Shown piece by piece: positions 18,413 through 46,800 of a stretch of DNA of 64,000 bases. The notes under the pieces are model-generated. The model ran no database searches, was not told the origin of the DNA, and saw only the letters and a program-made list of their open reading frames with translations. Source of the stretch: Synechococcus sp. AG-670-F04 (GTDB lineage Bacteria; Cyanobacteriota; Cyanobacteriia; PCC-6307; Cyanobiaceae). The DNA is taken from positions 1 through 64,000 of the forward strand of contig QCSN01000007.1 of the NCBI GenBank assembly GCA_003211515.1, given 5' to 3'. Within the stretch, counting starts at the first letter, position 1. Each line of letters opens with the position of its first letter. The translations under genes and the position numbers were made by a program.

Positions 18413-20374
18413 TTAAGCGTCGATAACCTTGATTTGGTCAGGCGCTGAGAAGATATTGCTGTCAAGCTGGAGCAATTCCTGCGTATTTGCTGTGAAGTTT
18501 CCAGCCGGAGCATACACCAACTTACTGGTATCTGTTGCAAAGGCCAACAGCCCTTGATTACCAGTCGGGAAGACTTGGCTTTTGATCTCAGCATCAAGAC
18601 CTACGATCAAAATGTTGGCCATTGAAGGTGAAGCCCCTGCCTCAATGATAGTTTTTTGCTGAACAGTCGCACCTGCGGTGTAATTTGGGAATGCCCCATC
18701 GTTGATCTGAATCAGGTCAAAGGAGCCAGCCTGTTTTGTGGCTGCATTTGCGCCCACATACCCAGTAATCGTATCCCTGCTAGTCGTCGTTGTTTGACCC
18801 GTTAAATCAATCGTGTTTTGCACATTCTGATTGGGAAAAGTGATGATGTCCTGGCCAGTTCCTCCTGCAATCGTAGATTGTCCCGCTGTGGAACCCCTGA
18901 GGTTGTCAATGCCAGGGCCACCGAGGAGATGGGAATCACCAGACAATCCTTCCACGGTGTCAGGGCCAAGAGTGCCCTCAATTTTTATACGGTCTCGATT
19001 TGTTGGCAGGCCTGAGTCAGCATTGTTTAAATTGATGCCGTGTTGAGATCTGATTTCGGAAAAATCATAATTTGCGATCCCAGGTGTACCCCAATTCTGA
19101 TACGTTGTTGCGGCAGTGAAAGTGCTTGGTGAAAAAATGAATGATTTTCCATTTGCGATTCCACTCAGATCCAACTCAGCGCTTCCATCATTTGATGCTT
19201 CAATTTTAAAATCTTCAATATTGATAAACTTGGCACCAAAAGCAGTAAATATGCTATCCAGCTTGTTGAACTGGTTGCTTTTGATTACGATGGTGTCTTT
19301 GTCTGAGGGAGAAGGATCTTGAATGGTGTCATTGTTAATCGTTCCAATCTCACATGAAATCGAATCGCTAAAGGTTGTAGTTTCGGGTGGGAGAATGTCT
19401 TTCCTGACAATTTTTGTAAGGGTGGCTCCTGCTTTGGTGATATTCAGGGTTAATGGAAGTGACGTTTGTTGTTTTTTATCCCCACTTTCAGTGGCAACAA
19501 CGGTGAAACTATAGCTATCTTTGCTAGCGATGTTGAAATCATCCTGGGTGCTCACAGCGCCAGATGTGGCATCAATCTTGAATGAAGCTGCATCTGTTCC
19601 ACTTAGTGAGAAGGTGACTTCCCCACTGTTATCTGTTGCAGATGCGTTATAAATTATGGATCCTAGTGGACTATCCTCTTTAATAGGGGTCACCGTTATT
19701 GGTGAAGTGAAGCTAGGAGGCAGGTCTTTATTGATTGAAAGAGTTAGCGGACTGCTTGTTGTTGAATGTCCTTCGCTGTCTGTGGCGATAATATTAAAGA
19801 GATAACTTGATTTTGCGCCATGATCAGTATTCTCCATAATCGCCACCTCACCATTATTGGGATTGATGGCTAAAAAATTGGCATCTTGTCCAGTTAATGA
19901 ATAGATAAGGGGAGTATTGTTACCTGTGGCAGCGGCCAGATAGATGGCTGTGCCAGAGGTTGAGCCTTCAGTGATGGAATCAACTGATGTTGGCGAAGTA
20001 AAAACAGGACCAGTAGTCTCCTGGGTAATCAGAGTTCCTTGGGTAAAGAAAGAACGGGAGGAATTCTTCTTTTTTTTGGCAAGTCGAAATCTCTTAAATT
20101 GTTTGAGAGGAGAAAATGTAAATTCTTCTCCGCCTGTGAACAAATTAGCCTCATTGCTATCGTTGAGACTTTCAAGGGTGATTTTCAGGCTAGCTTTTTT
20201 CCTCTTTCTCTTGCCTGGTAGCTCACCTTTCTCAAATCTAAAAACAAATCTCCCGTTGAAATCACCAGTATGTGTAATTGTATCTAATATTTGATTTCCT
20301 TTTTTGTTGGAAAGCGTTGCTTTAAGGTCCGAATAATCTTTAAAGCCTTTCAGTTTTGCGACAAGTTTCATCAT
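18413..20374 (-). CDS. Surface/secreted protein with two cadherin-like repeats and RTX-like region
   Basis: A 653-residue protein without an N-terminal signal peptide. Residues ~1-110 are basic and unrecognised. Residues ~123-217 and ~219-312 are two cadherin-like beta domains, each starting FTSP and with SL(T/S)GxDAxxFxI and VVATES/IIATDS motifs. Residues ~480-530 have degenerate glycine/aspartate calcium-binding turns (LLGGPGIDNLRGS, AGGTGQDIITF). The last ~120 residues resemble the C-terminal domain often found on picocyanobacterial RTX surface proteins, possibly a 'bluetail'-type domain (from memory, not checked). Together these point to type I secretion and calcium-dependent adhesion. 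AT-richer than the neighbouring carboxysome genes. It converges on chpX and opens the accessory block. Confidence 0.75.
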   Translation of the reverse strand: MMKLVAKLKGFKDYSDLKATLSNKKGNQILDTITHTGDFNGRFVFRFEKGELPGKRKRKKASLKITLESLNDSNEANLFTGGEEFTFSPLKQFKRFRLAKKKKNSSRSFFTQGTLITQETTGPVFTSPTSVDSITEGSTSGTAIYLAAATGNNTPLIYSLTGQDANFLAINPNNGEVAIMENTDHGAKSSYLFNIIATDSEGHSTTSSPLTLSINKDLPPSFTSPITVTPIKEDSPLGSIIYNASATDNSGEVTFSLSGTDAASFKIDATSGAVSTQDDFNIASKDSYSFTVVATESGDKKQQTSLPLTLNITKAGATLTKIVRKDILPPETTTFSDSISCEIGTINNDTIQDPSPSDKDTIVIKSNQFNKLDSIFTAFGAKFINIEDFKIEASNDGSAELDLSGIANGKSFIFSPSTFTAATTYQNWGTPGIANYDFSEIRSQHGINLNNADSGLPTNRDRIKIEGTLGPDTVEGLSGDSHLLGGPGIDNLRGSTAGQSTIAGGTGQDIITFPNQNVQNTIDLTGQTTTTSRDTITGYVGANAATKQAGSFDLIQINDGAFPNYTAGATVQQKTIIEAGASPSMANILIVGLDAEIKSQVFPTGNQGLLAFATDTSKLVYAPAGNFTANTQELLQLDSNIFSAPDQIKVIDA

Positions 20375-20882: not shown

Positions 20883-23099
20883 TTGGGTAATAATTTACTT
20901 CGCTTGATTTTAGCTTTTTTTCAGTCCTCTTCTTCGTTGTCGATTGCCTTTGCCTATCTCTGTATTGTTTTTACTCCAATCCCTTCATTCGCAGAAGAAG
21001 AATTGAGAATTATCACCGTTGGCGAAGAGCTTGATGACCCTAGTTACGAGCAACCTTCCAGTTTTACGGTGATTGATCGTGAAGAAATGGACCGGCGAGG
21101 GGTGATTAATTTTAAGGATTTGTTTCGCTACCAACCTGGGATTGAGGTGCGCCGAAGTAGGCGGTATGGAATCGAAGATATCAATATTCGCGGTTTGGAT
21201 GTCAATCGCATTCTCTATGAGCTGAATGGTGTTCGCTTGCCGGAACGGTTTGAGTTTGGCCCTTTCCGTCAGACGCGAGGCCAGTGGATTGACTTATTGA
21301 ATATTGGTGACGTTGATATTATCCAAGGCCCTGCATCAGTCCTGTATGGAGATGGGGCCCTTGGTGGTGTTGTCTCTTTTTCATCCCTTCATCCAGAAGT
21401 ATTTTTAGGAGAGGATGATCGTGCTGCTCAAGCGGTTGTCATGCTCAGCTCAGAGAACAACAGCGTGTCTGAACTTGTTCGATTTGCAGCTGAGGATTCA
21501 AACGGAATTATGGGTTTGTTGAGTGTCAGTCGTTCTGACTCAGAAGAGCCCCATCCGATCGCTGATTCTGATTTGGTTAATCGCCAAAACAATGACGGTG
21601 CTGGTTTTAATGCACAAATCATGATTCCATTTTCCGAAGATTTGAAATTTCGATTAAATACAGTTGGTTCCAGGCAAATTACAAGAACAACAATTGGCCA
21701 AGGTAATTTGCCATCAGGAGAATGGGGCTACGTCGTGAATCAAGATGAGGAAACAATCACAAATCAACTTTGGCAACTCGTCGCTTCGTTGGAATTTGAT
21801 TCCTTGATGGAGAATCCACTTTTTTCAGGGATGAAGTTTGATATCTATTTTCAAGATGCCTCTCAAGTGGATCAGAGGTTTGAGCATCGCACGACCACGT
21901 CTGCAGAGTTGGAGCGGAATGCAAAGACCACGGCAGTGAGTCAAGTTTCTGGTTTTAATCTTTCACGGAAACAGGAAGTGTTATTTGGCGACCTGATTCA
22001 CGAGCTAAATTATGGAGTTGATTATTCAAGAACCTTCAATTCGCGCCGCAGAGATCGCATTCAGACAAATGTAGAAGATGGTTCGAAGACCAGAGAGTTG
22101 CCGCTTGGCAACTTTCCGGTCAAAGATTATCCTGACTCACTGACGAATCGTCTTGGAGCATTTTTACAAGACACGTTGATAATTGACTCCCTAAAATTGA
22201 TTGCAGGGCTTCGTTATGAATCATATTTGATGAATCCACTGTCAGATTCAACTTTTGAAAAAAATGGAGCATTGGCTGGTAGCTCCGATGCAATCACTCC
22301 AACTTGGCGCTTGGCTGCACTATGGAGTTTGGATGAATCACATGTTATTTGGATGAATTATAATCGATCATTCAGAATGCCTCTTTATAGTGAAATTAAC
22401 AGTGGATTTACGAATTTGAATTCAGGGTATCAGACAATCAGTAATCCAGATCTTAAACCTGAAACTGGCGATGGACTTGAATTAGGTTTGAGAGCGCATT
22501 ATGAGTATTTTAAATACAGTTTAACTGGGTATTACAACAGATACAGTAATTTCATCGAAGCAGGGCGATTTGTTGGCACGAATTGTGAATTTGAGCAAGG
22601 CCGATGTGTTGCACAATATCAAACTGTCAACGCAGAGCAAGCTGTTACCTATGGTGTTGAGGGTAGTGCTGAGTACTCAACTGTTCCGGATGGCTATGGC
22701 TTGAAGATTCGATCAGGGTTCAATTATACGGTTGGCAATGATCTGGAGATCAACCAGCCACTTACAAGCATTGATCCTCCCAAGGCAATCGTTGCTGTTG
22801 GATATCATGAGCCTGATGATGGCTGGTCGGCTGAGTTGATTGGCACAGCATTCGCACGTGCCCGGGTTCCCGCTGATAGTGAACTTTTCATACCTTCTTC
22901 TTATATCCGCTGGGATTTGTTGGCATCTTGGGCCGTCGGCTCAAACTTTAAAATAAACTTTGGAGTTCTCAATCTATTTGATCACAGGCAGTATTCATAT
23001 GCTGATACAAAGTATATCTTAGATACTGGATATCGAGATATGAGCGGGTTTTCATTACCAGGTCGTGCCTATCAAGTTGGTTTCACTCTGCGCTTGTAG
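20883..23099 (+). CDS. TonB-dependent outer-membrane receptor
   Basis: A ligand-gated outer-membrane barrel that imports iron-siderophore, heme or a cobalamin-type ligand using TonB. The 738-residue frame starts with a rare TTG at 20883; another TTG lies 7 codons on. A signal peptide is visible (hydrophobic to ~IPSFA, cleavage before EEELRIITVGEE, which can serve as TonB box). The plug domain follows, with RRGVINFKDLFRYQPGIEVR, NIRGLDVNRILYELNGVRLP and DIIQGPASVLYGDGALGGVV. The C-terminus ends in the expected aromatic-type strand GRAYQVGFTLRL. It meets tonB tail to tail, overlapping by 17 bases. The substrate cannot be told; the plug resembles heme/siderophore receptors. Confidence 0.93.
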   Translation: MGNNLLRLILAFFQSSSSLSIAFAYLCIVFTPIPSFAEEELRIITVGEELDDPSYEQPSSFTVIDREEMDRRGVINFKDLFRYQPGIEVRRSRRYGIEDINIRGLDVNRILYELNGVRLPERFEFGPFRQTRGQWIDLLNIGDVDIIQGPASVLYGDGALGGVVSFSSLHPEVFLGEDDRAAQAVVMLSSENNSVSELVRFAAEDSNGIMGLLSVSRSDSEEPHPIADSDLVNRQNNDGAGFNAQIMIPFSEDLKFRLNTVGSRQITRTTIGQGNLPSGEWGYVVNQDEETITNQLWQLVASLEFDSLMENPLFSGMKFDIYFQDASQVDQRFEHRTTTSAELERNAKTTAVSQVSGFNLSRKQEVLFGDLIHELNYGVDYSRTFNSRRRDRIQTNVEDGSKTRELPLGNFPVKDYPDSLTNRLGAFLQDTLIIDSLKLIAGLRYESYLMNPLSDSTFEKNGALAGSSDAITPTWRLAALWSLDESHVIWMNYNRSFRMPLYSEINSGFTNLNSGYQTISNPDLKPETGDGLELGLRAHYEYFKYSLTGYYNRYSNFIEAGRFVGTNCEFEQGRCVAQYQTVNAEQAVTYGVEGSAEYSTVPDGYGLKIRSGFNYTVGNDLEINQPLTSIDPPKAIVAVGYHEPDDGWSAELIGTAFARARVPADSELFIPSSYIRWDLLASWAVGSNFKINFGVLNLFDHRQYSYADTKYILDTGYRDMSGFSLPGRAYQVGFTLRL

Positions 23100-24024
23100 T
23101 TGTTGGCTGTTTCTGCGCGCCTGTCTGAGCCGGCAAGGTGTAACGCTGCTTTTCTTGTTTCTCAATTGCTTTTTGGTGCTTGTCACTCCCTTTGATCACG
23201 ATGCTGTAACTGACTGGTACCCGCGCACCACCGTCGATGGCTTTGAATCGTGATCGACGTCCAGCATCCAACGCTGCATTGTCGATTTCAGGATTACCGC
23301 TCGATCGTTCCAGTTGTACGTTTTGCACCCGTCCATTGCTGTTGATTGTGATCAGAACTCTGGGTTCTCCTTCAATGCCTCGTCGCAGTGCACGTTTGGG
23401 GTATCGAGGTTTTGGGCACGACAGACATTCCACAACGCGGCGAGGTTTGACCTTGCTTGTTTCCCCCACCTGGATTGACGACGTCTGCGGCGAGTGTTGC
23501 TGTCCAGTGGTCATCCCCTGCTTGACATTGTTGGATTGTTCTTGATCCTGTTTCCTCTTAGAGCTGGATGGCTTCTCACGGGTCGACGCGATGGCCGAGG
23601 GTTGTTGTTCCTGAAGTGGTTTGGTATCTGAACCATGGCGCTTGCTGGAATGTTTGGGCGACTGTCTCAGGATTGGAGCTGGGGTCCGGCTAAGTTGCGG
23701 GGCTGCAGTGGACGTGGGCGCAGGAGTTGGTTGTTCAGCGTTGGGTGGTTGTATCCGATCAGATAACGCAACAGCCTTTTGTTGGATCGGTTCGTCTTGC
23801 TCATTCTCTTGGGGATTGGCTTGCTCGGTGATGGCCTGATCTTCTGGTCGTTGCTTCGCCTCCTTCGTACTCGGTAAAGCAGCCAACTCAATGATCACGA
23901 CGTTGGATTGGTTTTTCGGGAGCAAGGCATACTCTTTTTTTTCTCTGATCAAGAAGAGCAGAAGCGCATGAATGGAAATTGAAATGATTAAATAAAAGAT
24001 TACATTGGATTTTAAATGTTTCAT
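23083..24024 (-). CDS. tonB: Energy transducer TonB
   Basis: Spans the periplasm and passes inner-membrane proton-motive energy to the receptor. The 313-residue protein has one membrane helix near residues 9-25, a long Pro/Gln/Ser/Lys-rich disordered span (~60-195), then a TonB_C domain starting PKPRYPKRALRRGIEGEP and including RVLITINSNGRVQNVQLERS. About 30 residues beyond the domain are Lys/Gln/Thr-rich and unusual. It is the last gene of the operon with exbB and exbD (10-base gap to exbD). Confidence 0.93.
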   Translation of the reverse strand: MKHLKSNVIFYLIISISIHALLLFLIREKKEYALLPKNQSNVVIIELAALPSTKEAKQRPEDQAITEQANPQENEQDEPIQQKAVALSDRIQPPNAEQPTPAPTSTAAPQLSRTPAPILRQSPKHSSKRHGSDTKPLQEQQPSAIASTREKPSSSKRKQDQEQSNNVKQGMTTGQQHSPQTSSIQVGETSKVKPRRVVECLSCPKPRYPKRALRRGIEGEPRVLITINSNGRVQNVQLERSSGNPEIDNAALDAGRRSRFKAIDGGARVPVSYSIVIKGSDKHQKAIEKQEKQRYTLPAQTGAQKQPTTTSAE

Positions 24025-24034
24025 TATTTGGCGG

Positions 24035-24457
24035 TCATTTTCTGGCTTTTGTCTGAGGGCTTGTGACTAGGCCAATGGATTCAAATTCTGCTAATTTAGC
24101 CTTTTCAATGATACTGAAAATGACACCATATTCAATGGTCTGCTCGGCATCAATGAGTAGTTTCTTTGATGCATTTTGCTGCGTGATGATGCTGAGATCG
24201 TTGAGGAGTGTGGTTTGATTGCTTGGTTCGCTATTGATAAAGAGCTCTCCATTCTTTTTGATGCTGACAATGACGTCATCCGAGCCGATCGTTGTGGTAG
24301 TCGTCGCCTTTGGTCGATTGATCTCCACTACTCTGTTGCTACTGAGTATCAGGCTGGAAAGAACAAAAAAAAGAAGTATGGCGAAAAGTACGTCAATCAT
24401 GGGAAGAATATTGATGGTCAGATCGTTCTCCTGGTCAAATTCGTTGCCAAAATCCAT
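24035..24457 (-). CDS. exbD: Biopolymer transport protein ExbD
   Basis: Part of the ExbB-ExbD proton channel that energises TonB. The 140-residue protein has a cytoplasmic N-terminus, the single membrane helix with the essential aspartate in INILPMIDVLFAILLFFVL, and a periplasmic domain ending before PQTKARK. Six bases separate it from exbB and ten from tonB. Confidence 0.94.
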   Translation of the reverse strand: MDFGNEFDQENDLTINILPMIDVLFAILLFFVLSSLILSSNRVVEINRPKATTTTTIGSDDVIVSIKKNGELFINSEPSNQTTLLNDLSIITQQNASKKLLIDAEQTIEYGVIFSIIEKAKLAEFESIGLVTSPQTKARK

Positions 24458-24463
24458 GGTGAG

Positions 24464-25105
24464 TTAATGTTGAATTAAAAACTGTTCTTCAAGGCTGGTT
24501 GCAAACAATTGAAGTTCGTATTTTTGCGTTCGACTGAAACTTCGAAATAAGTTAGTAAAAGCAAGCGTAATCATTGCAATCACCAATCCAATTGCAGTTG
24601 AAACAAGAGCCTCACTGATCCCGGATATTACTACCTCTGCATTCTCCAAAGGTTGTTCAAGCCCCAGCCCTTCGAAGGAACGTATCAGACCCAGAACGGT
24701 ACCCAGGAGACCCAGTAATGGCGAAATCGCGACGATGGTTGACAACGCTGTGTCGTATCGACGCAACGGAGGACTTACACGTTGAAAACCAATTTTGATA
24801 CGCCGCTGAAACGATTCAAAATCTCTTGCTTTGGTTTGAATGACAGAGCGATAGAAGATCACCAACGGATGATTGCGTGGCTCAAAATTCAATACCGTTT
24901 CCTCTGGATAAGAAGTATGGAAATGGGCCAAGAGATTTTCTCTGACGGCTGTTTGCCTGGTAAGAGTCGTCATCCAGAAGACGAGTCGTTCAAGAATCAA
25001 TGCCAGTGCAATGATGGAAACGAATCCCAGGGGGATCGAAACTACGCCGCCGATGTTGCTGAGATCCATTGCGGATGCAAAATAAAGAGCCTCAGACCAA
25101 TACAT
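24464..25105 (-). CDS. exbB: MotA/TolQ/ExbB family proton channel protein
   Basis: A 213-residue membrane protein with three helices and the family core ISPLLGLLGTVLGLIRSFEG followed by ISEALVSTAIGLVIAM. It partners ExbD. The start MYWSEALYFASAMDLSNIGG fits the family; an internal methionine (SAMDL) is an alternative start. It follows the histidine-phosphatase-domain gene after 38 bases in the same direction. Confidence 0.94.
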   Translation of the reverse strand: MYWSEALYFASAMDLSNIGGVVSIPLGFVSIIALALILERLVFWMTTLTRQTAVRENLLAHFHTSYPEETVLNFEPRNHPLVIFYRSVIQTKARDFESFQRRIKIGFQRVSPPLRRYDTALSTIVAISPLLGLLGTVLGLIRSFEGLGLEQPLENAEVVISGISEALVSTAIGLVIAMITLAFTNLFRSFSRTQKYELQLFATSLEEQFLIQH

Positions 25106-25143
25106 GTCCTGAGGCGCCTGGATGCAGAGACTATCTGCCTATT

Positions 25144-26430
25144 TTAGATGTCGGCTCCAAATGCCCAATCACTGGGAGATAATTTAGCCACGATGTCGTA
25201 GCTGTCTCCATGAGGCTTAATGATATAAGCCGTTCCTTGAGGATCAGGGTAGATATTTGTGGTGCCTTCAAAGGGATCGTCATGACCGACAAGAACAGTA
25301 TTTTTCTTTTTTGGTGTTTTTGATAACATCGGTGCAATTCTGTCGTGATATATATCTAATTGCTCGTCAGTATAGTCTTCGTAAGGCAAGAAGTTTAAAT
25401 CATCAATGGCTTTCCCTTTGCCGAATGCTATTTTCGCTGTGTCGATGGCTCGTTGATATTGACTATTGCGAACGTTTCCGATTACAATGTCGTTGGCTTT
25501 GATGCCTTTTTTAATGTCGTTTGCTTCTTGAATCCCCTGGGCGCTCAGATTCCTTTGGGTTGATGGATCATTCAAATCCAGATTTGGATCAGCTTGATCG
25601 GCATAATCCGTTTCTGTTGTGGTATGTCGTAGATAGATTACATGGCCCCCTTTTTTCAATTTCTTAAGCAATTTCTTATCGCTCAACTTGTTCTCGAAGG
25701 CATTGTTGTTGAACTCCGCTTCTGAGAAATTATTGGGTTTGCTCTTGGGACTGCCAAAAATATCGTCTCCATTCAGATCGATGGAATGTTTCTTTTCCAT
25801 CTTATGAATCCATTTGTTTGATGCTGCTTCCTCTTGTGCAGAAGCCATTCCTTCTTCCTCGCTCATTGCGAAGGCTTGCTTTCTGAATTTGTTTTTTTCA
25901 TCCTTAAAAACAACGTATGTTGTCCTTTTGTTTTTGATAATACCGGTCACTTCACCTTCCCTTGATCCACCCGGACGCGGAGCGTCGAACAGGCTGGTAT
26001 AGATATTTTTCTCGTCATTCATCCACAGTGGCTTGAACGTTTTGGGTTCTGCCATGCGTGCAAGACCGTATTCGGCTAGGCCGATGCGATGGGTTCCACC
26101 CAGGTAGTACAGGCCCATTCCTGAGTTACCGCGTCGACCGTCGTGATAAGTGACGTAGACAGGATCTCCATCACCAGCGCCTGGAGCCCCCCCAGCACCT
26201 GGAGGCCCCCCAGCACCTGGAGGCCCTCCAGCACTTGGAGATTCTCCACCCGAATTTCCAGCCGCTGGAGGTCCTGCAGAGGGAGGAGTGGATTCATCGT
26301 CTTTTTCGTCGTCTTCAGTTGCATTACAGAACTCGAAGCCATCCACAGGAGGATGTCCATCTGGAAGGCAACCACCTCCATCAGATGAAACGGGTGGATG
26401 GCCTTCAGGTAATGTGATGCCTGTAGACAT
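25144..26430 (-). CDS. Histidine-phosphatase-domain protein at the head of the exbB-exbD-tonB operon
   Basis: A 428-residue protein without signal peptide. Residues 7-14 (LPEGHPPV) and 22-29 (LPDGHPPV) are a tandem motif, with Cys at 21 and 35. Residues ~48-88 form a Gly/Pro/Ala linker. Residues ~90-240 are unrecognised, with VYVTYHDGRRG and a basic, charged part. The last ~165 residues are a histidine phosphatase domain: GGHVIYLRHTTTETD (catalytic His after Arg), SAQGIQEANDIKKGIKANDI, RAIDTAKIAFGKG and the second histidine in TVLVGHDDPFEGTTNIYPD. The enzyme type is unknown: it could act on phospho-sugars, nucleotides or a phosphorylated ligand. It seems to be first in the TonB-energising operon, so a role in metal or siderophore use is an inference. 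Confidence 0.72.
   Translation of the reverse strand: MSTGITLPEGHPPVSSDGGGCLPDGHPPVDGFEFCNATEDDEKDDESTPPSAGPPAAGNSGGESPSAGGPPGAGGPPGAGGAPGAGDGDPVYVTYHDGRRGNSGMGLYYLGGTHRIGLAEYGLARMAEPKTFKPLWMNDEKNIYTSLFDAPRPGGSREGEVTGIIKNKRTTYVVFKDEKNKFRKQAFAMSEEEGMASAQEEAASNKWIHKMEKKHSIDLNGDDIFGSPKSKPNNFSEAEFNNNAFENKLSDKKLLKKLKKGGHVIYLRHTTTETDYADQADPNLDLNDPSTQRNLSAQGIQEANDIKKGIKANDIVIGNVRNSQYQRAIDTAKIAFGKGKAIDDLNFLPYEDYTDEQLDIYHDRIAPMLSKTPKKKNTVLVGHDDPFEGTTNIYPDPQGTAYIIKPHGDSYDIVAKLSPSDWAFGADI
26174..26245. repeat. About four 18-bp tandem repeats coding the Gly/Pro linker
   Basis: Imperfect 18-base units of the form CCCAGCACCTGGAGGCCC repeat about four times within the preceding gene and encode GGPPGAGGPPGAG in frame. 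Such repeats can expand or shrink by slippage in whole units without changing the frame, so linker length may differ between strains. Confidence 0.8.
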
Positions 26431-26632
26431 TGAATTGAAAACACTTAGTCATATTTATGCTCAAGGACCCCCAAGAAGAATGCCACACTTTATTTCACAG
26501 CCGCATGTATAAAAATTTACGGATTGAATATTGATTTTGCCTCGAATTGGCTTTTTTGTAGCATGACTCTGGATTGCATTTGCTCTAAGTCAATCAGGTT
26601 GCTCCCTTTATATAAAGAGCCTCTAGCCATCG

Positions 26633-27721
26633 ATGAAATGGTTCCTTTACACTCTTTTCATTGGGTGGGTCTGGTCCAGATTCCTGGAATTGATGATTGA
26701 AATTGCAAAGGATACTCGTAATCACATTGCCGGTTTGTCCATGAAATTCATTTCATTTCTTGGGTTGCTGTGGATATTAGTCATTGTTTTTGTTTTATCA
26801 TTATGTGTCGGTGATTCGCCGATTGGGTTTGAGGACCTGTGGGATTATGTTTCAGGAACTTCCTCCTCAGAGACAACTGTCTTGGTGATTCGTGATATTC
26901 GCTTGCCTCGCACCTTGGCAGCCTTGTTGACGGGATCTGCTCTGGGCGTTTCAGGGGCAATGCTTCAAGGAATGCTTCGTAATCCGTTGGCCAGTCCATT
27001 CCTGCTCGGCATTTCTTCGGGCTCAGGAGTCTGTGTCGTTATTCTTTTTTCCTTGAATAGTTTGGCTTATTGGATCCCACTGGGTGCATGGTTGGGTGCT
27101 GTGGTGTCGGCGTTAATCGTTTTTTGTATTGCTTATGATCAAAAGAGGATTTCCCTGGAACGATTGATTCTCTCAGGAGTCGCTGTCAGTAGTGTTTTGG
27201 GATCTGTGCAAGCTATTTTTCTCTTGCGCTCGGATGATACACGCATTCAGAATTCTTTAACCTGGTTGTCCGGAACACTGGCTGGCCGTGAGTGGGGCGA
27301 TTTAACTTTTACATGGATTCCAATCGTCTTATGTTTATTGTGCTCCTTTGTTTTCGCTAAACAACTTAATTTGGCATTGCTTGATGATGATACCAGCCGA
27401 TCCTTAGGCCTGTCTTTAACACGACTCAGGATTTTGATTGGTGTTTGCGCAACTCTGCTGACAGCCTGTTCTGTATGTATTGCGGGACTGGTCGGTTTTG
27501 TCGGTTTGGTGATTCCTCACATCGCACGTTTACTCTGCGGTGGTAATTTTGTTTATGTTTTGCCATTCTCTGGGGTCTTGGGCGCACTCACTGTTGTAGC
27601 AGGTGATCTGATCGCAAGAATGTATCTCTGGGAGCTTCCAGTCGGTATTGTGACAGCACTATTTGGTTCGCCATTTTTTATCTATCTATTGAGAAAACGC
27701 CGAATGGAAGGGAATGTCTAA
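26633..27721 (+). CDS. FecCD/BtuC-family ABC transporter permease
   Basis: Inner-membrane permease for iron-siderophore, heme or cobalamin uptake; 362 residues with about ten helices. Family motifs: RLPRTLAALLTGSALGVSGA, LQGMLRNPLASPFLLGISSG and VGLVIPHIARLLCG. The N-terminus is longer than usual (~36 residues before LSMKFISFLGLLW); an internal Met start is possible. It is divergent from the histidine-phosphatase gene and is followed by its ATPase with a one-base overlap (TAATGG). Together with the receptor it makes a full TonB-to-cytoplasm import path. Confidence 0.92.
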   Translation: MKWFLYTLFIGWVWSRFLELMIEIAKDTRNHIAGLSMKFISFLGLLWILVIVFVLSLCVGDSPIGFEDLWDYVSGTSSSETTVLVIRDIRLPRTLAALLTGSALGVSGAMLQGMLRNPLASPFLLGISSGSGVCVVILFSLNSLAYWIPLGAWLGAVVSALIVFCIAYDQKRISLERLILSGVAVSSVLGSVQAIFLLRSDDTRIQNSLTWLSGTLAGREWGDLTFTWIPIVLCLLCSFVFAKQLNLALLDDDTSRSLGLSLTRLRILIGVCATLLTACSVCIAGLVGFVGLVIPHIARLLCGGNFVYVLPFSGVLGALTVVAGDLIARMYLWELPVGIVTALFGSPFFIYLLRKRRMEGNV

Positions 27722-28479
27722 TGGAGGATCTATCTTTATCTGACGTCTCTTATTCTATAAATTCTAATTCAATCCTTGAGAAGATTTCGTTTTCTGTTGG
27801 TCCTGGGGATTGGCTTTGTATCGCTGGATGCAATGGTTCAGGAAAGTCCACGTTGTTGAGATTGATGGCAGGTTTAATTGGTCCTAGTCATGGTTGCATT
27901 CAATTTGGGGGCACAGCTTTTAAGGACTTGCCTGATAAAGATAAAAAAATTTCGATTCTCTCCCAGCGTTCCAATGTCAATGCATGCTTGACGGTTCAAG
28001 ATCTTGTGTGTTTAGGACGTTATCCCTATTTGCCGAGCTGGGGTGTCCGTTTTTCCGAGGCTGATTGGGAGCAGGTTAGTTATGCCATCGATTTTGTTGG
28101 TTTGAATGATCTGCGTGATCGTTCGCTTGATTCATTGTCTGGTGGAGAAAGACAGCGAGCTTTTTTAGCCCTTTCTTTGGCTCAGAATGGATCCATTCTG
28201 CTTTTGGACGAACCTACCAATCATCTGGATATTGTTGCACAAAATCAGATTTTGAATCTTTTGGAGAAAATGGCCAATTCCGGAAAAATTATTGTTTCCG
28301 TATTCCATGATCTGAATCATATTTCAAGGTATTCCTCTCATCTTGCCTTGATGCGCCAAGGTCAGTTGCTTGAGTTCGGTCCCACGGATCATGTGTTTCG
28401 TTCACAGTCGTTGAGTGAAACATTTGGTCTGGCTATTCGTGTTGTTGAGCATGAGGGGCAACGGTGCGCTCTGTATTGA
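27721..28479 (+). CDS. ABC transporter ATPase of the iron/heme/cobalamin importer family
   Basis: Cytoplasmic ATPase that drives the FecCD-type permease; 252 residues. Walker A is GCNGSGKST, the signature is LSGGERQRAFLALSLAQ, Walker B is ILLLDEPTNHLD, and the switch His is in VSVFHDLNH. Its ATG overlaps the permease stop by one base. Sequence and gene order fit the FecE/HmuV/BtuD branch. Confidence 0.93.
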   Translation: MEDLSLSDVSYSINSNSILEKISFSVGPGDWLCIAGCNGSGKSTLLRLMAGLIGPSHGCIQFGGTAFKDLPDKDKKISILSQRSNVNACLTVQDLVCLGRYPYLPSWGVRFSEADWEQVSYAIDFVGLNDLRDRSLDSLSGGERQRAFLALSLAQNGSILLLDEPTNHLDIVAQNQILNLLEKMANSGKIIVSVFHDLNHISRYSSHLALMRQGQLLEFGPTDHVFRSQSLSETFGLAIRVVEHEGQRCALY

Positions 28480-28527
28480 GACATCACTTGTTGGATAGCT
28501 CAATCGTGGCTGGTCACGGATGAATAT

Positions 28528-29469
28528 ATGGTGTTGTTTTTATCACGCTGTCATGCTTATTTTGTTCGATCGGGGTCAGTTATTGGTATAAAATTAATTT
28601 CATTGGTTTATGAAATTGTGGCTTATTTGTATCCATTCCTTTCGGTTTTGCTCGTTTTCTTTTGGCTTCCGCCTTTGCCGGCGCAAGGGGAGATCGACAT
28701 CAGTCGTTCTGGCCGACAGGTGAGCCGTGTGGTTGCCTTGACTTCACTGTCTGCTGACATGGTTGTGTCACTGGATCCTGGAGTCCTGGTTGGTGTTCCA
28801 GGCACTTCTCTGACCAACAACGACTCGCGTTTCAAAGGTATGAAGCGTATTTCTTCTGGCAGAAGTCAGCCAAGCCTGGAGGCCATTGTGGCCCTTAAGC
28901 CTGATCTTGTGGTGGGCGCAGATGGTTTCCACTCCAAGATCTTGAGTGGTTTGAATGGCTTAGGAATTGCAACTCTTCCTTTAAGGATTGATCGCTGGAA
29001 TCGTCTGGAGGAAGCGGCTCAGTTGCTGCGTCAGCGTATTTCCAATTCCGATGTTCTCGAACAAAAACTGGCTGACATCTGCCCTGCTGTCTCTGGGGTT
29101 GCGAAGCCGTCGCGATCGCGTGTGTTGATTCTTGTTGGGGTGTCGCCCAAGCTTTCGCCTTCTTCAGATAGTTGGTCTGGGTCTCTGCTTGCCAGGCACG
29201 GTCTAATCAACGTCACACAGGGGCTTTCGGGGGGGAGTGAGTTTTCGGGCTATATCACCATGTCAAACGAGCGTTTGTTGACCGTTGATGCTGACACGGT
29301 TCTTGCTGTAAACCCTTCAGGTGGTGCAAAACAATTGCGACAATCAATTCGGCAATTTTTACCTAAAGTCAAGTCAAAAAATGTTGTCAAAATGGATTAT
29401 TATGGATTGGTCAATCCTGGAAGTTTAGGAAGCATTGCCTCTGCTTGTAAGCGTCTTCGGGCTTTGTAA
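28528..29469 (+). CDS. Periplasmic binding protein of the iron/heme/cobalamin importer
   Basis: A class III (BtuF/FecB/HmuT-like) ligand-binding protein of 313 residues. A long hydrophobic N-terminus ending near FFWLPPLPAQG looks like a signal sequence. The mature part starts RQVSRVVALTSLSADMVVSL, then GRSQPSLEAIVALKPDLVVG and the ILVGVSPKLSPSSDSW segment typical of siderophore/heme binders. It is 48 bases downstream of the ATPase. The ligand cannot be assigned by reading; vitamin B12 is possible but no cobalamin riboswitch was seen upstream. Confidence 0.88.
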   Translation: MVLFLSRCHAYFVRSGSVIGIKLISLVYEIVAYLYPFLSVLLVFFWLPPLPAQGEIDISRSGRQVSRVVALTSLSADMVVSLDPGVLVGVPGTSLTNNDSRFKGMKRISSGRSQPSLEAIVALKPDLVVGADGFHSKILSGLNGLGIATLPLRIDRWNRLEEAAQLLRQRISNSDVLEQKLADICPAVSGVAKPSRSRVLILVGVSPKLSPSSDSWSGSLLARHGLINVTQGLSGGSEFSGYITMSNERLLTVDADTVLAVNPSGGAKQLRQSIRQFLPKVKSKNVVKMDYYGLVNPGSLGSIASACKRLRAL

Positions 29470-38627: not shown

Positions 38628-40751
38628 ATGTCTAAAGCGATAGAGAGAACATCACTTGAGAGGATTCAGGCTCAGCTTGATAAATCAATTTATTATGGCG
38701 AGATCTCTGCCAATACCGATTCAGTTGTTAGGCTAAAAGATAGCATCAAGCAATTTCAGGAAGTTATTCTTAAAGTTAATCTATCTGATGGGCCCAATGA
38801 TGTCTATGGGCATCTTTCTGGGTTAAGCCACGATCTTGATTTGTATTTTTTCAGCGATCATCCCTCAAATTCTTTTATAAGCTCAACAGGCTCAGGTCGC
38901 AGAGCAGAGTTATGTTTTACCCAAATTGACTCCAAGAATGATGATCTTTTTGTTAGAATAAGCTCCAATCAGCCTTTAAAGACGACAAAAGATTTAACAT
39001 TTAAGTTCGACCTGAATGTCTATACAACTGGTCTAAATCCATATCTGGCCACTCCTAATGATCCTTTCTATGGTGAACAGTGGTATTTATTTAATGGTGC
39101 AGGGAAAAATGTAGACTCTGAACTTGCTTTTCTTAATTTTGACATTGCTGCGCCTGAAGCATGGACGAAGCATCGTGGCTCCCGTTCAACACCAATTGCT
39201 GTAATTGATTCAGGAATTGATTTAGAGCACCCAGATTTAAACGACAATATATGGGTAAATGAGGGTGAAATACCAGGAAATAATTTAGATGATGACAGCA
39301 ATGGTTTTGTGGATGACGTTCATGGCTGGGATTTCATAACCAACCAACCAGATGGTCGTTATCGGAAGAGTATGCAGGAGAATATTCGCTCTCATGGTAC
39401 ACATGTTGCAGGCATTATTGGCGCTGAAGGTAATAATAAAATAGGCATTACGGGGATTAATTGGGAGTCCCAGTTAATGTCTTTAAATGTGTTTGATGAT
39501 GCGGGACTGGCTGCAGATAGGCACATTATAAATGCAATCGATTATGCGATAAATAATGGGGCGAAAGTTATTAATTTGTCACTAGGAGAGGAATCTAAAA
39601 TTGGCATTGGCCAGGTTAATTCAAAAAAATTAGAAAGCCGTTATTTCAAAGTTAAAAGTATGTATCGTAATATTTTCAGGAAAGCGAGAAACAATGATGT
39701 ACTGATTGTGATGGCTGCTGGCAATGCAGGTTCACCAGGCTCAGAAACTCGACGATGGAATAGAGTTGGTGACTTGAATTCGAATGCAATTTTTCCCTAT
39801 AGCTTTGCCGAAAAAAAAGATAATCTTATTCTTGTTACTTCAGTTGATTCAGATGCCAAAATTGCCCCATATGCAAACTATGGCAATAAAGTTGTTGATA
39901 TCGCTGCCCCAGGCGGAAATATTCAAAAAGCATCATTTAAGACAGATCCCACAACCGGTCAGATCGTAGATGTTTTTGTCAAAAATTATGGTATTTATAG
40001 TACGGTTCCGGATCAAACAATTGGGTCTGATCAAAAAAAACGTGGTGCCTATATGATGAAAAATGGTACATCGATGGCAGCTCCAGTAATCACTGGAGCT
40101 GCCGCATTAATATGGGATTATCATCCAAAATTAGAGGCATCAGATGTTAAAAAAATTCTTATCAATAATTCTATTGAATTGAATTCCCTAGAGCCTTTTG
40201 TCGTTAATAGTCGAGCGCTACGTTTGGAAGATGCTATGGAGAAAGTTGATAAAATAAAAAGCAAAGATGATGCCTTGATCTCCTCAATTGAGCCAAAAGA
40301 CATGCATGAAGCTGTAGTGAATTGCACAAAAAATAGCTGCGAGTATGTTTCAAGCTTGCAATCAACAATACTAAAAGGTTCACCTGGCAAAGACCTTTTT
40401 ATTTTTAACAATATGGCAACTTTTTCGCTGCAAAATATGGATAAAATTATCAATTTTAATCCATCTCAATCAGATCAACTGATTTTGCCATCCAAGCGAT
40501 TCAAAGGATTATCAAATGATCGTTTGACATTGCAAACAGTGGCTTCAACGGAAGAGATCATTGAAGCTGCTAAACAACCTGTTGACATTATCTATTTCAA
40601 GAAATCTGGTCAGCTATTTTACAACGCTAATGGAGACGAACCTCGCTTTGGTGGCGAGCAAATTGGTGGCCTTTTTGCAGAAATTAAAAACACTCCTGAT
40701 CTGACACTTAATGATTTTGCTGTCGTTGAGGATCCAATTGCAACTTTATAA
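38628..40751 (+). CDS. Subtilisin-like serine protease with C-terminal RTX-like domain
   Basis: A 707-residue S8 protease without a classical signal peptide. An N-terminal beta domain (~35-130) resembles a PPC-like prepeptidase fold. The catalytic domain has Asp194 (AVIDSGID), His256 (SHGTHVAGIIG), Asn366 (AAGNAGSPG) and Ser482 (NGTSMAAPVITGAA), so it looks active. Residues ~565-707 start at KGSPGKDLFIFNN and include IINFNPSQSDQLIL, GQLFYNANGDEPRFGGEQIG and a final LTLNDFAVVEDP, typical of RTX-type C-terminal secretion domains. This suggests type I export or surface display. It follows the oxidase gene after 215 bases. AT-rich, unlike core genes of the window. Confidence 0.85.
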   Translation: MSKAIERTSLERIQAQLDKSIYYGEISANTDSVVRLKDSIKQFQEVILKVNLSDGPNDVYGHLSGLSHDLDLYFFSDHPSNSFISSTGSGRRAELCFTQIDSKNDDLFVRISSNQPLKTTKDLTFKFDLNVYTTGLNPYLATPNDPFYGEQWYLFNGAGKNVDSELAFLNFDIAAPEAWTKHRGSRSTPIAVIDSGIDLEHPDLNDNIWVNEGEIPGNNLDDDSNGFVDDVHGWDFITNQPDGRYRKSMQENIRSHGTHVAGIIGAEGNNKIGITGINWESQLMSLNVFDDAGLAADRHIINAIDYAINNGAKVINLSLGEESKIGIGQVNSKKLESRYFKVKSMYRNIFRKARNNDVLIVMAAGNAGSPGSETRRWNRVGDLNSNAIFPYSFAEKKDNLILVTSVDSDAKIAPYANYGNKVVDIAAPGGNIQKASFKTDPTTGQIVDVFVKNYGIYSTVPDQTIGSDQKKRGAYMMKNGTSMAAPVITGAAALIWDYHPKLEASDVKKILINNSIELNSLEPFVVNSRALRLEDAMEKVDKIKSKDDALISSIEPKDMHEAVVNCTKNSCEYVSSLQSTILKGSPGKDLFIFNNMATFSLQNMDKIINFNPSQSDQLILPSKRFKGLSNDRLTLQTVASTEEIIEAAKQPVDIIYFKKSGQLFYNANGDEPRFGGEQIGGLFAEIKNTPDLTLNDFAVVEDPIATL

Positions 40752-40846: not shown

Positions 40847-43800
40847 ATGATATTGTCATCCTTATTAAGTATAAAGACTCAATCCAGAAAGCATGTTCTT
40901 GCTCCGAGTGATCTTGTTGAATATTTGTCATTAGATTTCTATTTATCCTCCGATACTTGGAATATTCATGCGGTTGAGCCAGAAACTAATATTGAACAGT
41001 TATTAGAAGTTATCAAAGACTATTCAGATCAAGAAATTCATTTGATCTGCCATGGCGATGGCGTGACTCTTCAGATTGGTGAGGGCCTTCCCTTATCGAG
41101 ATTGTACGAAGTGAGACGAGATTGCTTATCCGTCTCGACCCCTGACCTTGTCCTTTGGTCCTGTTATGGAGGTCTGCACTACGGTTGTTCTGATCGTGTA
41201 AGGGCTCGGATTATCACGACTGACTCCCTTCTCGGTAACAACAAAACTATTGAGGGGTATGCGCCGTTGAGTTCATTAGTGCAGAAAAGTAGTGTGGAAT
41301 TGAATGATAAATCTGCTGGATGGACTTCAAAAAACAAGGAACTTTTTGCGTTACATCCACCTAAACAAAATAAAAAAACTGGTATTTGGCATCTTGATCA
41401 AGACAATAGCGTCAACTTCTTTTCGAAGATTTCCCAAAATAAGCTCATCGTTTTACCTAAACTTAAAGGAATTCGTTCAGAGATCACCTCTGAATACAAA
41501 GATTTTCGTGAATGGACGATTCGTTTTGACGCCGCTGATCCGAAATTAACATTTCGCCTCCCGAAAATATTGCGGTCGAAAGATTCTGGTAAGAGCGACT
41601 TATTGACGACCGAAGTCACCGTTGAAGATGCATCAATTAAATCTTGGCATGTAGAGGCTTCAGCTGATTTACTTGATATCGATAGCCTAAATATTAGTGG
41701 AAAAGTTAATCTTAGCCATGAAATCGGATCGTCACAGTATATACTTGGTGGGGTTGTTGACCTTTTTAGTGATTCGCCTATTGCAGAATATTTTGATTTC
41801 GGCTCTCAAAAATTCGATGGCCAGGTGGTTTTTAATCACTCTGCGCATAAAAATAAGACTCGAGATAGATTTCATGTTGTTAGTTTTGAGGGTAAGACAC
41901 CATTTGATATCGACTTGTTTGGTTTGGGTGGACTAAAAAGTTCAAAGAAATCTTCAATTTCTTATAGTAAATCGCAGAAATCTTCCGATACTGATAATAA
42001 TGTAGATGGTAGATATACTATTTCTCATATTAAAACTACTGGGGGGCGTGGAAGTATCTTTGGTAGGGGCGTTAAATTTCCTGATTTAAATTTTAACCTT
42101 TTGAACGGTGCTTTTAAGATTGGCAAATGGAAGACATCCGGTAAATTATCATTCAATATCCCTGGTCTTAATACGAATAAAAAAATTGATATTAGCTCCC
42201 AGCCTTCGAGTTCAAAACAACAAGAAATTAAGATTAGGAACCTTAAGTTGCCTAATAATCAGCCGTTATTTGAAGATGGAGCAGCTATTAATTCTCTTAC
42301 TGTTACACAGGATGAAAATGGTATTTGGTATCCAAAAGCATGGTCAGCTCGTGGAGATTTTAAACTCCCATTCAATGCGCTTAAGTTTGCGCCAGATCTT
42401 CGCTTGAATTACAAAAAATCAGCTAATGGTGATTTGATCTCTCTTAAAAATGCAAGTATACTTAATGATAATAATCAATTGATAACGTCCGGCTCGATTT
42501 CAAATGCAGATTTATCGAAGGGTCCTAGTAATAAATGGCTGATTTCATCATTAAAAGCCAAAGGTGAACTGACAAATTTGTTAAAGCCACTTGGAATTGA
42601 TTTGAATCCAAGTGTTGCTTTCAGCTACTCCTTTGATCCGAAAAAATCCGAAGAGTTGTATGAACTTTCAGGCAGTTTAGTTTCAAATTCAAAAGCGTCC
42701 TCGTTGCTAGTCAATGGTTCATTGGATCATCTTCACCTTGTAAAACCAAACAAAAATAATGACAGATGGACGATTTCGAATTGGCAAGCTACTGGCTCTT
42801 TAAATGTCAAACCAATAGGGCTTTCTATCGATAAAGCCACTTTGAGATATAACAATGATGATGGAATACCAACATACTCGATTCGTGATCTTGAATTATC
42901 GAAAACAGGTGTTCAATCTAATTTATTGGAGGCGGCTACACTGCGCCACCTTGAATTTCAACCCATTCAAAACGGCCGAGGATGGAAGATATCCGAGTGG
43001 GAAGCAAAGGGAAACTTCAACCAGAATATTGCTGGTCTTGCACTTGATGCAGGACTCACTCTTGCATTCGACCACAACGAGAAAGATTCTTTTTATACAA
43101 TTTCAAATGCTGTTCTGAAAAGCAATGCTTCGGCCACGAATAATAATCTCTTACTTTCTTCTGGTCAATTAGATGAACTTGTATTCAGTTACTTACCTAC
43201 TAACAAGGGAAGAATACTTGATGTCAAGCATTGGAATGCAACCGGACGTCTCAATGTAGATGTGCTGGGTTTGTCCATCGATGGTCTTGTTGATATGGCT
43301 TTTTCGAAAAAGAATAATAAACACCGTTACATTATTGAAAAAGCTCAGTTATCTTCAAAAACAGATTCGTCAGTCACCAATCAATTAATTGGTGATGGAG
43401 AAATTCGAAATTTAATTTTTATCCAGGACAAGAGCATTAAGAAACCAGGTTGGACCATCCAGCAATATGAGGCAGAGGGTTCATTTGCGCTCAATTTACC
43501 TGGATTAAATGTTCAAAGTAAGGCTTTGCTCTCTTATCAGAATACTCGTGGAGCTCAGACTTATCGTGTCGATCGTGCCATGGTCGGCGGTGGCTCAAAA
43601 GAGGATGATTTATTTTCAGAAGGCACGGTCAATGATCTTGTATTTGAATTTGATAATACGAACAACCAATGGGATGTGAAATCATTTGAGGTTGATGGGC
43701 GTATTAATTTACCGGTGAGGGGTGTTGACCTCAATTCAAAATTATCAATGAAATATGATCACAATAAGGGCCGAGCTAAGTATGTTATCGCAGAGGCAGA

Positions 43801-46800
43801 AATTGACGCTTCAAAGGATAAGCAGGGAGCTGATCATATTTTTGCTAAGGCAATGATTAATGATTTGATTTTCATTGATCAATCGAATGATGACGAAGAA
43901 CGCAAGTGGCAGATTCTTTCCTACGCAGCGATTGGCCAACTTGATTTTTCAATAGCTGGCTTACCTCTAGGCTCAAATGTTAATTTAGAATATAAGTCGA
44001 ATAGAACTTCACAACCCCAATATGTTATCAATGCTGATTTTAATGCTGGTCAAGTAAATGCCAGTTCATTGTTTGCCGAGGGTCGTGTTCAAGATTTAAT
44101 ATTGCGTCCGCACTCTGATCAAGTCGAATCTGATTCCACAGACAAACGTTCAGCCTCATGGATTGTTGATAGTTATACTGCAAGTGGTCGATTTAACTTT
44201 GATATCGCCGGCTTGAAATTTAATTCAAATCTGGATCTTGATTATAAACGGGGAGATGATCCCAATTCAATCGACCTCTACCGCGTTTCTGAGGCATCGT
44301 TGCAGGCCAGTAAGGAGGATCAATCAGCATTATTTGCCGAGGCTAAGCTCCGCGATCTTGTTATCCATCACTTACCGAATAAAAGTGGCCGTGATGCCTG
44401 GAAAGTTCAAAAGTATCAAGTTAATGGTTTGCTTAATATTGATATAGCGGGCCTCAATCTCTCTTCAGATGTCGAATTGAAGTATCGCTATGACGCTTTA
44501 AATTCTCGAGATTTTTATTCTGCTAACGCCACGGTTTCAGCTGATACGACCGACTCGGAATCATTATTCACAACAGCAGATATAACCAACCTTCAGTTCA
44601 GCTATGAACAGCAAAATCAGATGAATCCCTGGCAGGTTGATCAATATGATGCATCAGGGATGTTGGCGATGGAGGTGTTGGGTTTAAACCTCTCATCTGG
44701 TGTCGATTTAACATACCGACGTGAATCTTCAGGCCTGGAGCGCTACATAGCGTCTGCCAGTATTACCGCTGCTGGGGGCGATCCCAATAGTTTGTTTGCC
44801 TCGGCTGAAGTTGAGGATATGGAGTTTTCACATCATGCCAATCCTGAGGATGCTGGTGACTCATGGACCGTTGATAAATTTCGTGCTTCTGGACAATTGT
44901 CATTTGAGGTTCCTGGTCTAAATCTTAGTTCTGGTGTTGATGTTAATTATGGTCTTGATGAGTCTGGAGAGCCTCTTTTTATTGTAAATGCCAGTATTAA
45001 AACCAAAGGAATCCAGCCAGATAGTTTATTTGGCAGGGCAGAAGTTAGTGACTTGTTTGTTCGATATCGCGAACCTTTAGAAGGATCATCTGCTTCCTGG
45101 TTCGTTGAGCAATTTGATGCCGAAGGTGAGTTGGAAGTTCCGATATTGGGATTAAATTTTAATGGAAATGTTGCTCTTGAATACCGTCATAATATTACTT
45201 CGGGCATTGATAACTATCGTATTAATGGAAAGGTAAGCGCAGCAAGCCAGGACGCTGAATCTATTTTTGCTAAAGCTACAGTCTCTGATCTTCTGTTAAG
45301 TCGAAATCAGAATTCTCCACCTGGGGCATCTGCTTGGCGAGTTGATCAGTTTGATGCTTCGGGAGAACTTAATTTTCCTGTTGCGGGTCTCAACTTCACG
45401 AGTGATGTGCAACTTTCATATCGTAATCCTCTGGAAGGTTCGGAACAATATATTTTAAATGCCGAAGTTGGTGGTTCAGCCGATTCAGATTCGTTATTTG
45501 CTTCAGCCAAAGTTACTGATATGATCATTGAACCTACTGTCGATCCTTCTGCTCGCAATAGTAGAAAGTGGGCTGTGCGGCAATACAAGGCTTCCGGTGC
45601 ATTGTCATTTAATATATCCGGACTATCATTTGCTTCAGCTGTAAATCTTGAGTATCAAAACGTTGGTAATTTAGAGACATTCACAATACCAGCGGCGTCT
45701 TTAAAATCGTCCGGTTCCAGCTTATTGGCTTCGGGGCGTGTTGAAAATCTTACGTTTACTCGTTCTAGATCCACTCCTTCTCGTTCGGATGATGTCTCAC
45801 TGCCGTCGACGACCACTTGGAGTACTGAACAGTGGGATGCCAGTGGTGCACTAAACATTGCAGCTCCAGGTTTGAATCTCTCTGCTGGTGCTTCCGTTAG
45901 TTATCGCTCAGATTCCCAGCAGTATTTGGTGAGCGCTCAACTTGAATCGGCGTCGGATTTATTGCAAGCTGGAGCTTCACTCGATCAGATGGTTGTTAAA
46001 AAATCAACTGTTGAGGGGGCGACCAAACCCTGGTTGATTGAACAATGGACTGCATCGGGGAGTCTCAATCTTGATACAACTGGTTTTCAGATGGATTCGA
46101 GAATGAGGATCCAGTTCCTCTCTGATCTTCTTTCCCCGACGGGTCGTGATATTTATAAAGTGAGTGGCGGCCTGTCTTTTGAGGCGGGTCTTTTTAATGG
46201 CGATGTGTCGTTGAATGAGATGTTAATAGAACCCACCTCTCAAAATGATTGGGCTATTTCGAGATGGAATGCATCTGGCCTGTTGGATATCAAATTTGGC
46301 GGTCTCTCTGCCTCTGGCTCTATTGCTGTTGATTATCTTGCAGGTGTTGATGGTCAACCTGATTCTTATGTCATTGATGACCTCACATTAGCGTCATCTG
46401 GTGAATTCTTTTCGGGTCAGGTCTCTGCCCAAGATGTAAATCTTACTTATGATCCACAATATGGTTGGATCCCGCTTTCGGCGAAGCTGCGCGGTAGTTT
46501 AGCCGCTGATTTCGACCTTATTGGTTTGCAGGGGGATGTTGCTTTAGATTATTCCTATGATCCTGTTCGTAAAACGACTGTTTGGAAAACCAGTGACGCG
46601 ACGTCGGCGGATTTAAAATTAGCGATAAAAGATTTTGCAGATTTTAAGACTTCAGTCCAGTTTGAAAGAGTGATTCCAGATTCTTCACTTGAAACACCAT
46701 ACTTCAAATCTTTGTCAGCAGGCCTCGATCAAGGCCAAATCAGTATCGGAGATCTTGATTTTGATATCCCCAAGCAAGGTGTTGAATTTGCCTATGCCCA

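Follow-up and report, generated by a model that had tools for sequence, protein, structure and literature searches.

The closest described system to the locus treated here is the picocyanobacterial siderophore-uptake cluster fecDCAB-tonB-exbBD (PMC9122953; PMC10119275), to which the available text of these papers assigns a TonB-dependent receptor (TBDR), TonB, ExbB, ExbD, a FecCD-type permease, an ATPase and a binding protein. In the accessible part of PMC9122953, such a cluster is defined by at least five of the families PF01497, PF01032, PF00005, PF03544, PF01618 and PF02472 beside a PF00593 receptor, and its substrate is not pinpointed, a siderophore or a novel metallophore being argued for. 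A more distant point of reference is PmrG, which, according to the accessible part of PMC8129183, dephosphorylates heptose II as part of a modification system that is linked with resistance to iron.

The iron island and its added genes

The window analysed is a stretch of 64,000 nucleotides from Synechococcus sp. AG-670-F04 (contig QCSN01000007.1, positions 1 to 64,000), of the marine Synechococcus type. All six families and the receptor score above the Pfam cut-offs at 20883-29469, the seven components named above are all adjacent, and judged by these profile matches the TonB genes of the window are the published cluster, as far as its available description goes. The genes of this island are as follows.

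18413..20374, minus strand: cadherin-domain protein of 653 aa, divergent from the TBDR gene, in the slot that holds an N-dom protein in relatives
20883..23099, plus strand: TBDR with plug and barrel (profile matches)
23083..24024, minus strand: tonB (Pfam)
24035..24457, minus strand: exbD (Pfam)
24464..25069, minus strand: exbB, its start moved from 25105 by comparison with relatives
26633..27721, plus strand: FecCD-type ABC permease (Pfam)
27721..28479, plus strand: ABC ATPase (Pfam)
28528..29469, plus strand: periplasmic binding protein, Peripla_BP_2 (Pfam)

Compared with the published cluster as its available text describes it, two genes are additional here: one for a phosphatase, flanked by exbB and the permease gene, plus the cadherin-type gene beside the TBDR gene. 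Neither is mentioned in the available text of PMC9122953 or PMC10119275; the word phosphatase does not occur in the main text of PMC9122953, to which this count is confined, its supplementary cluster figures lying outside this scope. A literature search joining histidine phosphatase, TonB-dependent and siderophore returned no related paper. The G+C content of the island (0.42-0.51, phosphatase gene 0.465) is lower than that of its flanks (0.55-0.57). Besides its cadherin domains, the 653-aa protein has one RTX-like stretch, and the same slot is occupied by N-dom proteins in six other genomes. Elsewhere in the window, a subtilase (Peptidase_S8, 38628-40748) has a C-terminus resembling that of the exoprotein-like N-dom proteins, and adjoins a giant open reading frame of 2666 aa (40847-48844).

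The phosphatase and its transcription

The phosphatase gene is an intact open reading frame whose parts can be laid out as follows, together with the element that separates it from exbB.

25144..26430, minus strand: gene for a modular histidine phosphatase, 428 aa
26389..26412, minus strand: first motif, LPEGHPPV, residues 7-14 (read in translation)
26344..26367, minus strand: second motif, LPDGHPPV, residues 22-29, with Cys21 directly ahead
26167..26307, minus strand: acidic stretch and Gly/Pro-rich linker, approximately residues 42-88 (read from the sequence)
25717..26166, minus strand: middle region, residues 89-238, common to two relatives, with a DLNGDDIFG motif (profile searches, alignment)
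25147..25716, minus strand: histidine phosphatase domain of the PRK06193/NF004841 type, residues 239-428, with R268-H269, R327 and H383 (NCBIfam)
25079..25119, minus strand: terminator-like hairpin GCCTCAG...CTGAGGC with a T-rich tail, after the phosphatase stop and before the likely start of exbB (RNA fold)

This layout agrees with the sequence-only reading, which had described a GHPPV doublet with adjacent Cys, a Gly/Pro linker, an unmatched middle and a histidine phosphatase domain. A lack of conserved catalytic residues would have counted against that reading; R268, H269, R327 and H383 are the same in all 13 aligned homologues. The roles of the Arg-His pair, the second Arg and the second His are those usual in the superfamily. 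The C-terminal 190 residues match NF004841 (PRK06193.1-1) with 244.8 bits, above the curated cut-off of 178; the score for Pfam PF00300 (His_Phos_1) is 11.7 bits, under its gathering threshold of 21.7 as in two relatives, and that for PmrG is 17.7 bits against a cut-off of 170. In the middle region, neither Pfam nor NCBIfam gave a match; its DLNGDDIFG motif resembles an EF-hand loop. Two structure models reached mean pLDDT values of 34 and 32, too poor for a fold search, and a sequence search of solved structures gave only weak matches. An origin from phage was considered and rejected, as neither a PHROGs match nor a phage record was found.

On which side of the membrane does such an enzyme work? 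No Sec-type leader is visible in the 428-aa protein, just as the sequence-only reading had it, and no export signal was identified; RTX repeats and an exoprotein-type C-terminus or C-terminal secretion domain, looked for as signs of type I secretion, are absent too. Homologues are present in 26 of 59 related genomes by protein search, and 18 of the 34 genomes of the genus carry a stand-alone copy, among them the window genome itself (G000:C73, with a leader peptide). Visual inspection shows a leader at the N-terminus of 22 of 23 stand-alone homologues, lipobox-type in 13 and otherwise hydrophobic in nine, the visible part of the remaining one not reaching that region. From these N-termini the stand-alone family looks extracytoplasmic, and the phosphatase domain probably acts outside the cytoplasm. 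Of 27 sequences, 22 have a pair of Cys residues within the domain, two lack both, one has a single Cys and two were unscored, and such joint presence or absence is as expected for a putative disulfide; the pair is lost in the 428-aa protein and in a 1722-aa fusion of G037. In that fusion, which belongs to another cyanobacterium (L163:3-5168), the PRK06193 domain lies inside a long repeat-rich open frame.

The gene lies upstream of exbB on the same strand, and the sequence-only reading took it to head the TonB operon. Since (V/M/L)DLSxFGG opens the related ExbB proteins encoded in the islands of G011, G012, G013, G016, G017 and G027, the start of exbB is placed at 25069 and not at 25105. The resulting gap of 74 nt contains a G/C-rich stem of 7 bp and, directly behind it, UCUUUAUUUU as a U-rich tail (fold z -2.1); a consensus terminator scan did not list this hairpin because its loop is longer than the scan allows. 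With the corrected exbB start and this hairpin, the phosphatase gene is regarded as probably its own transcription unit, read-through into exbB being possible. Thus, co-transcription with exbB-exbD-tonB could not be confirmed, and the position at the head of the operon finds no support either, given the hairpin and given that the other two copies occupy a different island slot, where they diverge from the TBDR gene. A Fur-like box, sought with a Fur consensus in 13 intergenic regions of the island, was in none of them better than in shuffled sequence (lowest p 0.085). With no such box and with the poor structure models, the choice of an exported accessory enzyme, to which we return below, draws no support from regulation or fold.

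Relatives and their link to TonB genes

In the 59 related genomes searched, the middle region is shared, besides the window genome, only by G016 and G027, the latter being Synechococcus sp. AG-683-C23 of the same genus; in G002, a contig end leaves just a terminal fragment. The relatives, of 566 aa in G016 and 447 aa in G027, are 59-61% identical to the window protein over residues 89-428. Both genes lie between ndhF/ndhD/chpX-like genes and the TBDR gene, from which they diverge, and the chpX-like gene also adjoins the G002 fragment. In G016 and G027, the place of the GHPPV head is taken by a domain of about 80 residues, here called N-dom, of which G027 has one copy and G016 two. The corresponding slot of G011, G012 and G013 is occupied by a protein that carries two N-doms and, at its C-terminus, a domain also present in the window subtilase (E 1e-13 to 1e-17 in a small local database), and two of these three proteins give weak scores for RTX repeats. 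G635, a Prochlorococcus-like genome, likewise has a protein with two N-doms in this slot (L123:1-1116, divergent neighbour of the TBDR gene), preceded by a starting region reminiscent of a C-type lectin domain; Pfam gave no match for this region. A partial N-dom at a contig end of G016 (L111:9922-10815), about 19 kb from the TBDR gene, forms the start of a protein that continues with a PEPEPTPDPQ linker. Both slots, beside the TBDR gene and before exbB, vary in content.

The doublet that replaces N-dom in the window protein is not due to chance. Its two copies are 15 residues apart, with Cys35 following the second, and differ in seven of eight codons although seven of eight residues agree, so that it is the peptide that is repeated and not the DNA. 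The pattern LPxGHPP[VI]DG occurs in one of 386 genomes of the phylum, that of the window, and LP[ED]GHPP[VI]DG has no match in viral contigs. The looser LPxGHPP is met at 54 places in 27 of the 34 genus genomes; loci were given for 30 of these places, and translation of 33 pattern loci yielded, besides the phosphatase gene, only short or unrelated frames. The idea of a widespread GHPPV motif was rejected on these counts. Likewise rejected was a decayed N-dom, since pairwise comparison leaves few and chance-like identities and the N-dom profile matches nothing in the window genome. By such comparisons the GHPPV head is a lineage-specific feature. As it occurs in one genome only, in place of N-dom, conservation gives no clue to its function, and as it is absent from both nearest full-length relatives (G016, G027), it is not essential to the family. 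A literature search for LPEGHPPV gave no match.

How tightly is the architecture bound to TonB genes? All three near-complete copies of middle region plus phosphatase (window, G016 and G027) lie in a TonB/ABC iron island. Among 400 genomes of the family, seven carry N-dom or the middle region, and all seven belong to the 30 with a TBDR plug; the N-dom profile by itself matches six, all with a TBDR, and in each of the six an N-dom gene adjoins the TBDR gene and diverges from it. Within the genus, seven genomes have a close ExbB, and six of these carry N-dom or the middle region, against none of the 27 others (Fisher p 5e-6, or 3.5e-5 when the G002 fragment is scored against the link), but related genomes share one island and the counts are not independent, so that p overstates independence. 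Close ExbB here means the seven genomes with E 3e-39 or better, three weaker ExbB-like matches not being counted, and in the seventh of them, G017, the island is cut by a contig end. The phosphatase domain alone behaves otherwise: it is scattered and found also in genomes without TonB, and only five of the 18 genomes with a stand-alone copy showed a TBDR plug match, in a survey that drew 400 family genomes and need not include all 18. The TonB link proposed in the sequence-only reading, which was to fall if homologues were scattered apart from TonB genes, thus stands for the whole architecture, with three of three copies in the island and N-dom tracking TBDRs, and does not stand for the domain by itself. 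In the ten Prochlorococcus-like islands viewed, the gene order is different and no such phosphatase is a neighbour, from which it follows that the gene is dispensable for TonB uptake.

Possible roles and likeness to known systems

The reading that we prefer, with a little less than even confidence, is that of an exported, modular accessory phosphatase of a siderophore or metallophore uptake island, predicted to work outside the cytoplasm. The presence of the same enzyme, or of proteins sharing its modules, in the cluster of near relatives suggests an accessory to iron uptake that has been undescribed. In such an enzyme, a PRK06193-type phosphatase would be joined through the middle region to an interchangeable N-terminal head, the GHPPV doublet with its flexible linker here and N-dom in relatives, and the head may anchor the enzyme to the cell surface or to its ligand, or orient it there. 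Phosphate would be removed by a two-step phosphohistidine mechanism, with His269 as the nucleophile and Arg268, Arg327 and His383 forming the pocket, roles that we take over from the superfamily. As to the iron role and the substrate, both of which we infer, an iron-binding phosphate ester or a surface phosphate near the TBDR is proposed, whose dephosphorylation would free or convert an iron ligand for import by TBDR, TonB and FecCD; the processing of a phosphorylated ligand or siderophore, as suggested from the sequence at first, is possible. Export would have to proceed without a Sec signal, perhaps by a type I route, as N-dom on exoprotein-like partners may suggest; an HlyB-like half gene is present in the window genome (G000:C40), its score of 276 bits over 366 aa falling short of the cut-off set for the whole protein. 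Several observations count against this exported accessory enzyme: no export signal and no Fur-like box were found, a hairpin precedes exbB, the head occurs in one genome, the gene is dispensable, the domain is scattered, and its Cys pair is lost.

The main rival, somewhat unlikely in our judgment, supposes that the slots beside the TBDR gene and exbB are variable cargo slots, and that a general exported phosphatase, serving phosphate scavenging or exopolymer turnover, merely rides on a mobile island. The changing slot content speaks for such a passenger, being N-dom with exoprotein parts, N-dom with phosphatase, or the cadherin-like 653-aa protein, and so do the commonness of the domain apart from TonB and its occurrence in the 1722-aa repeat protein. 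Random cargo would, however, be expected elsewhere as well, and the middle region or N-dom is in no genome without a TBDR (7/7 carriers of 400).

The two other rivals are less likely than either of these. The enzyme might, in the manner of PmrG, dephosphorylate LPS or another surface glycan and thereby alter Fe3+ binding or access to the receptor. The activity of PmrG on heptose II in an iron-resistance-linked system, as the accessible part of PMC8129183 has it, would fit such a role, as would stand-alone relatives that look like lipoproteins or exported enzymes and sub-threshold NCBIfam matches to PmrG (20.8 bits in the paralogue of the window genome); these scores stay far under the cut-off, and the proposal appears distinctly improbable. 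Very improbable is a cytoplasmic regulator whose His/Cys doublet would bind metal and gate the phosphatase on a cytoplasmic phosphoprotein or metabolite: the missing Sec signal, the His and Cys of the head and the lost Cys pair of the domain agree with it, but the other two full-length copies lack the doublet, the N-termini of the stand-alone relatives are of leader type, and exoprotein-like proteins carry N-dom as well.

If the preferred reading of an exported accessory enzyme is widened, picocyanobacteria may possess a class of TBDR-partner exoproteins, leaderless and modular, whose genes stand back to back with that of the receptor. In them, a small domain for binding the ligand or the receptor, in many cases present twice (N-dom, or the GHPPV doublet in the window genome), would be combined with exchangeable parts, predicted to be a type I secretion domain, a phosphatase or a lectin-like domain, and an iron ligand would thereby be harvested or chemically unlocked before uptake; we consider this unlikely at present. 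The phosphatase and the N-dom proteins would offer a handle on the ligand of the cluster through their binding and enzymatic specificity. If the phosphatase is a true part of it, iron uptake of abundant ocean phototrophs includes a step of ligand or surface processing that is absent from the published cluster descriptions, as far as their text was available.

With PmrG/Ais, the LPS heptose(II)-phosphate phosphatases, the 428-aa protein shares sub-threshold similarity of the catalytic domain, and the PmrG system, by the part of its description available, is likewise iron-related surface modification; the architecture differs, and 17.7 bits stand against 170. To the uncharacterised family NF004841 it is nearer, its domain scoring above the cut-off and keeping the catalytic residues. 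The stand-alone homologues met in this analysis have open frames of 207-314 aa and start with a lipobox or another leader, whereas the 428-aa protein carries the domain at its end, behind a linker and an unmatched middle, and has no leader. Finally, the locus can be likened, by description only, to HasA-type hemophores, which we take to be leaderless exoproteins encoded beside their TonB receptor; what sets the 428-aa phosphatase apart from them is the presence of an enzyme domain.
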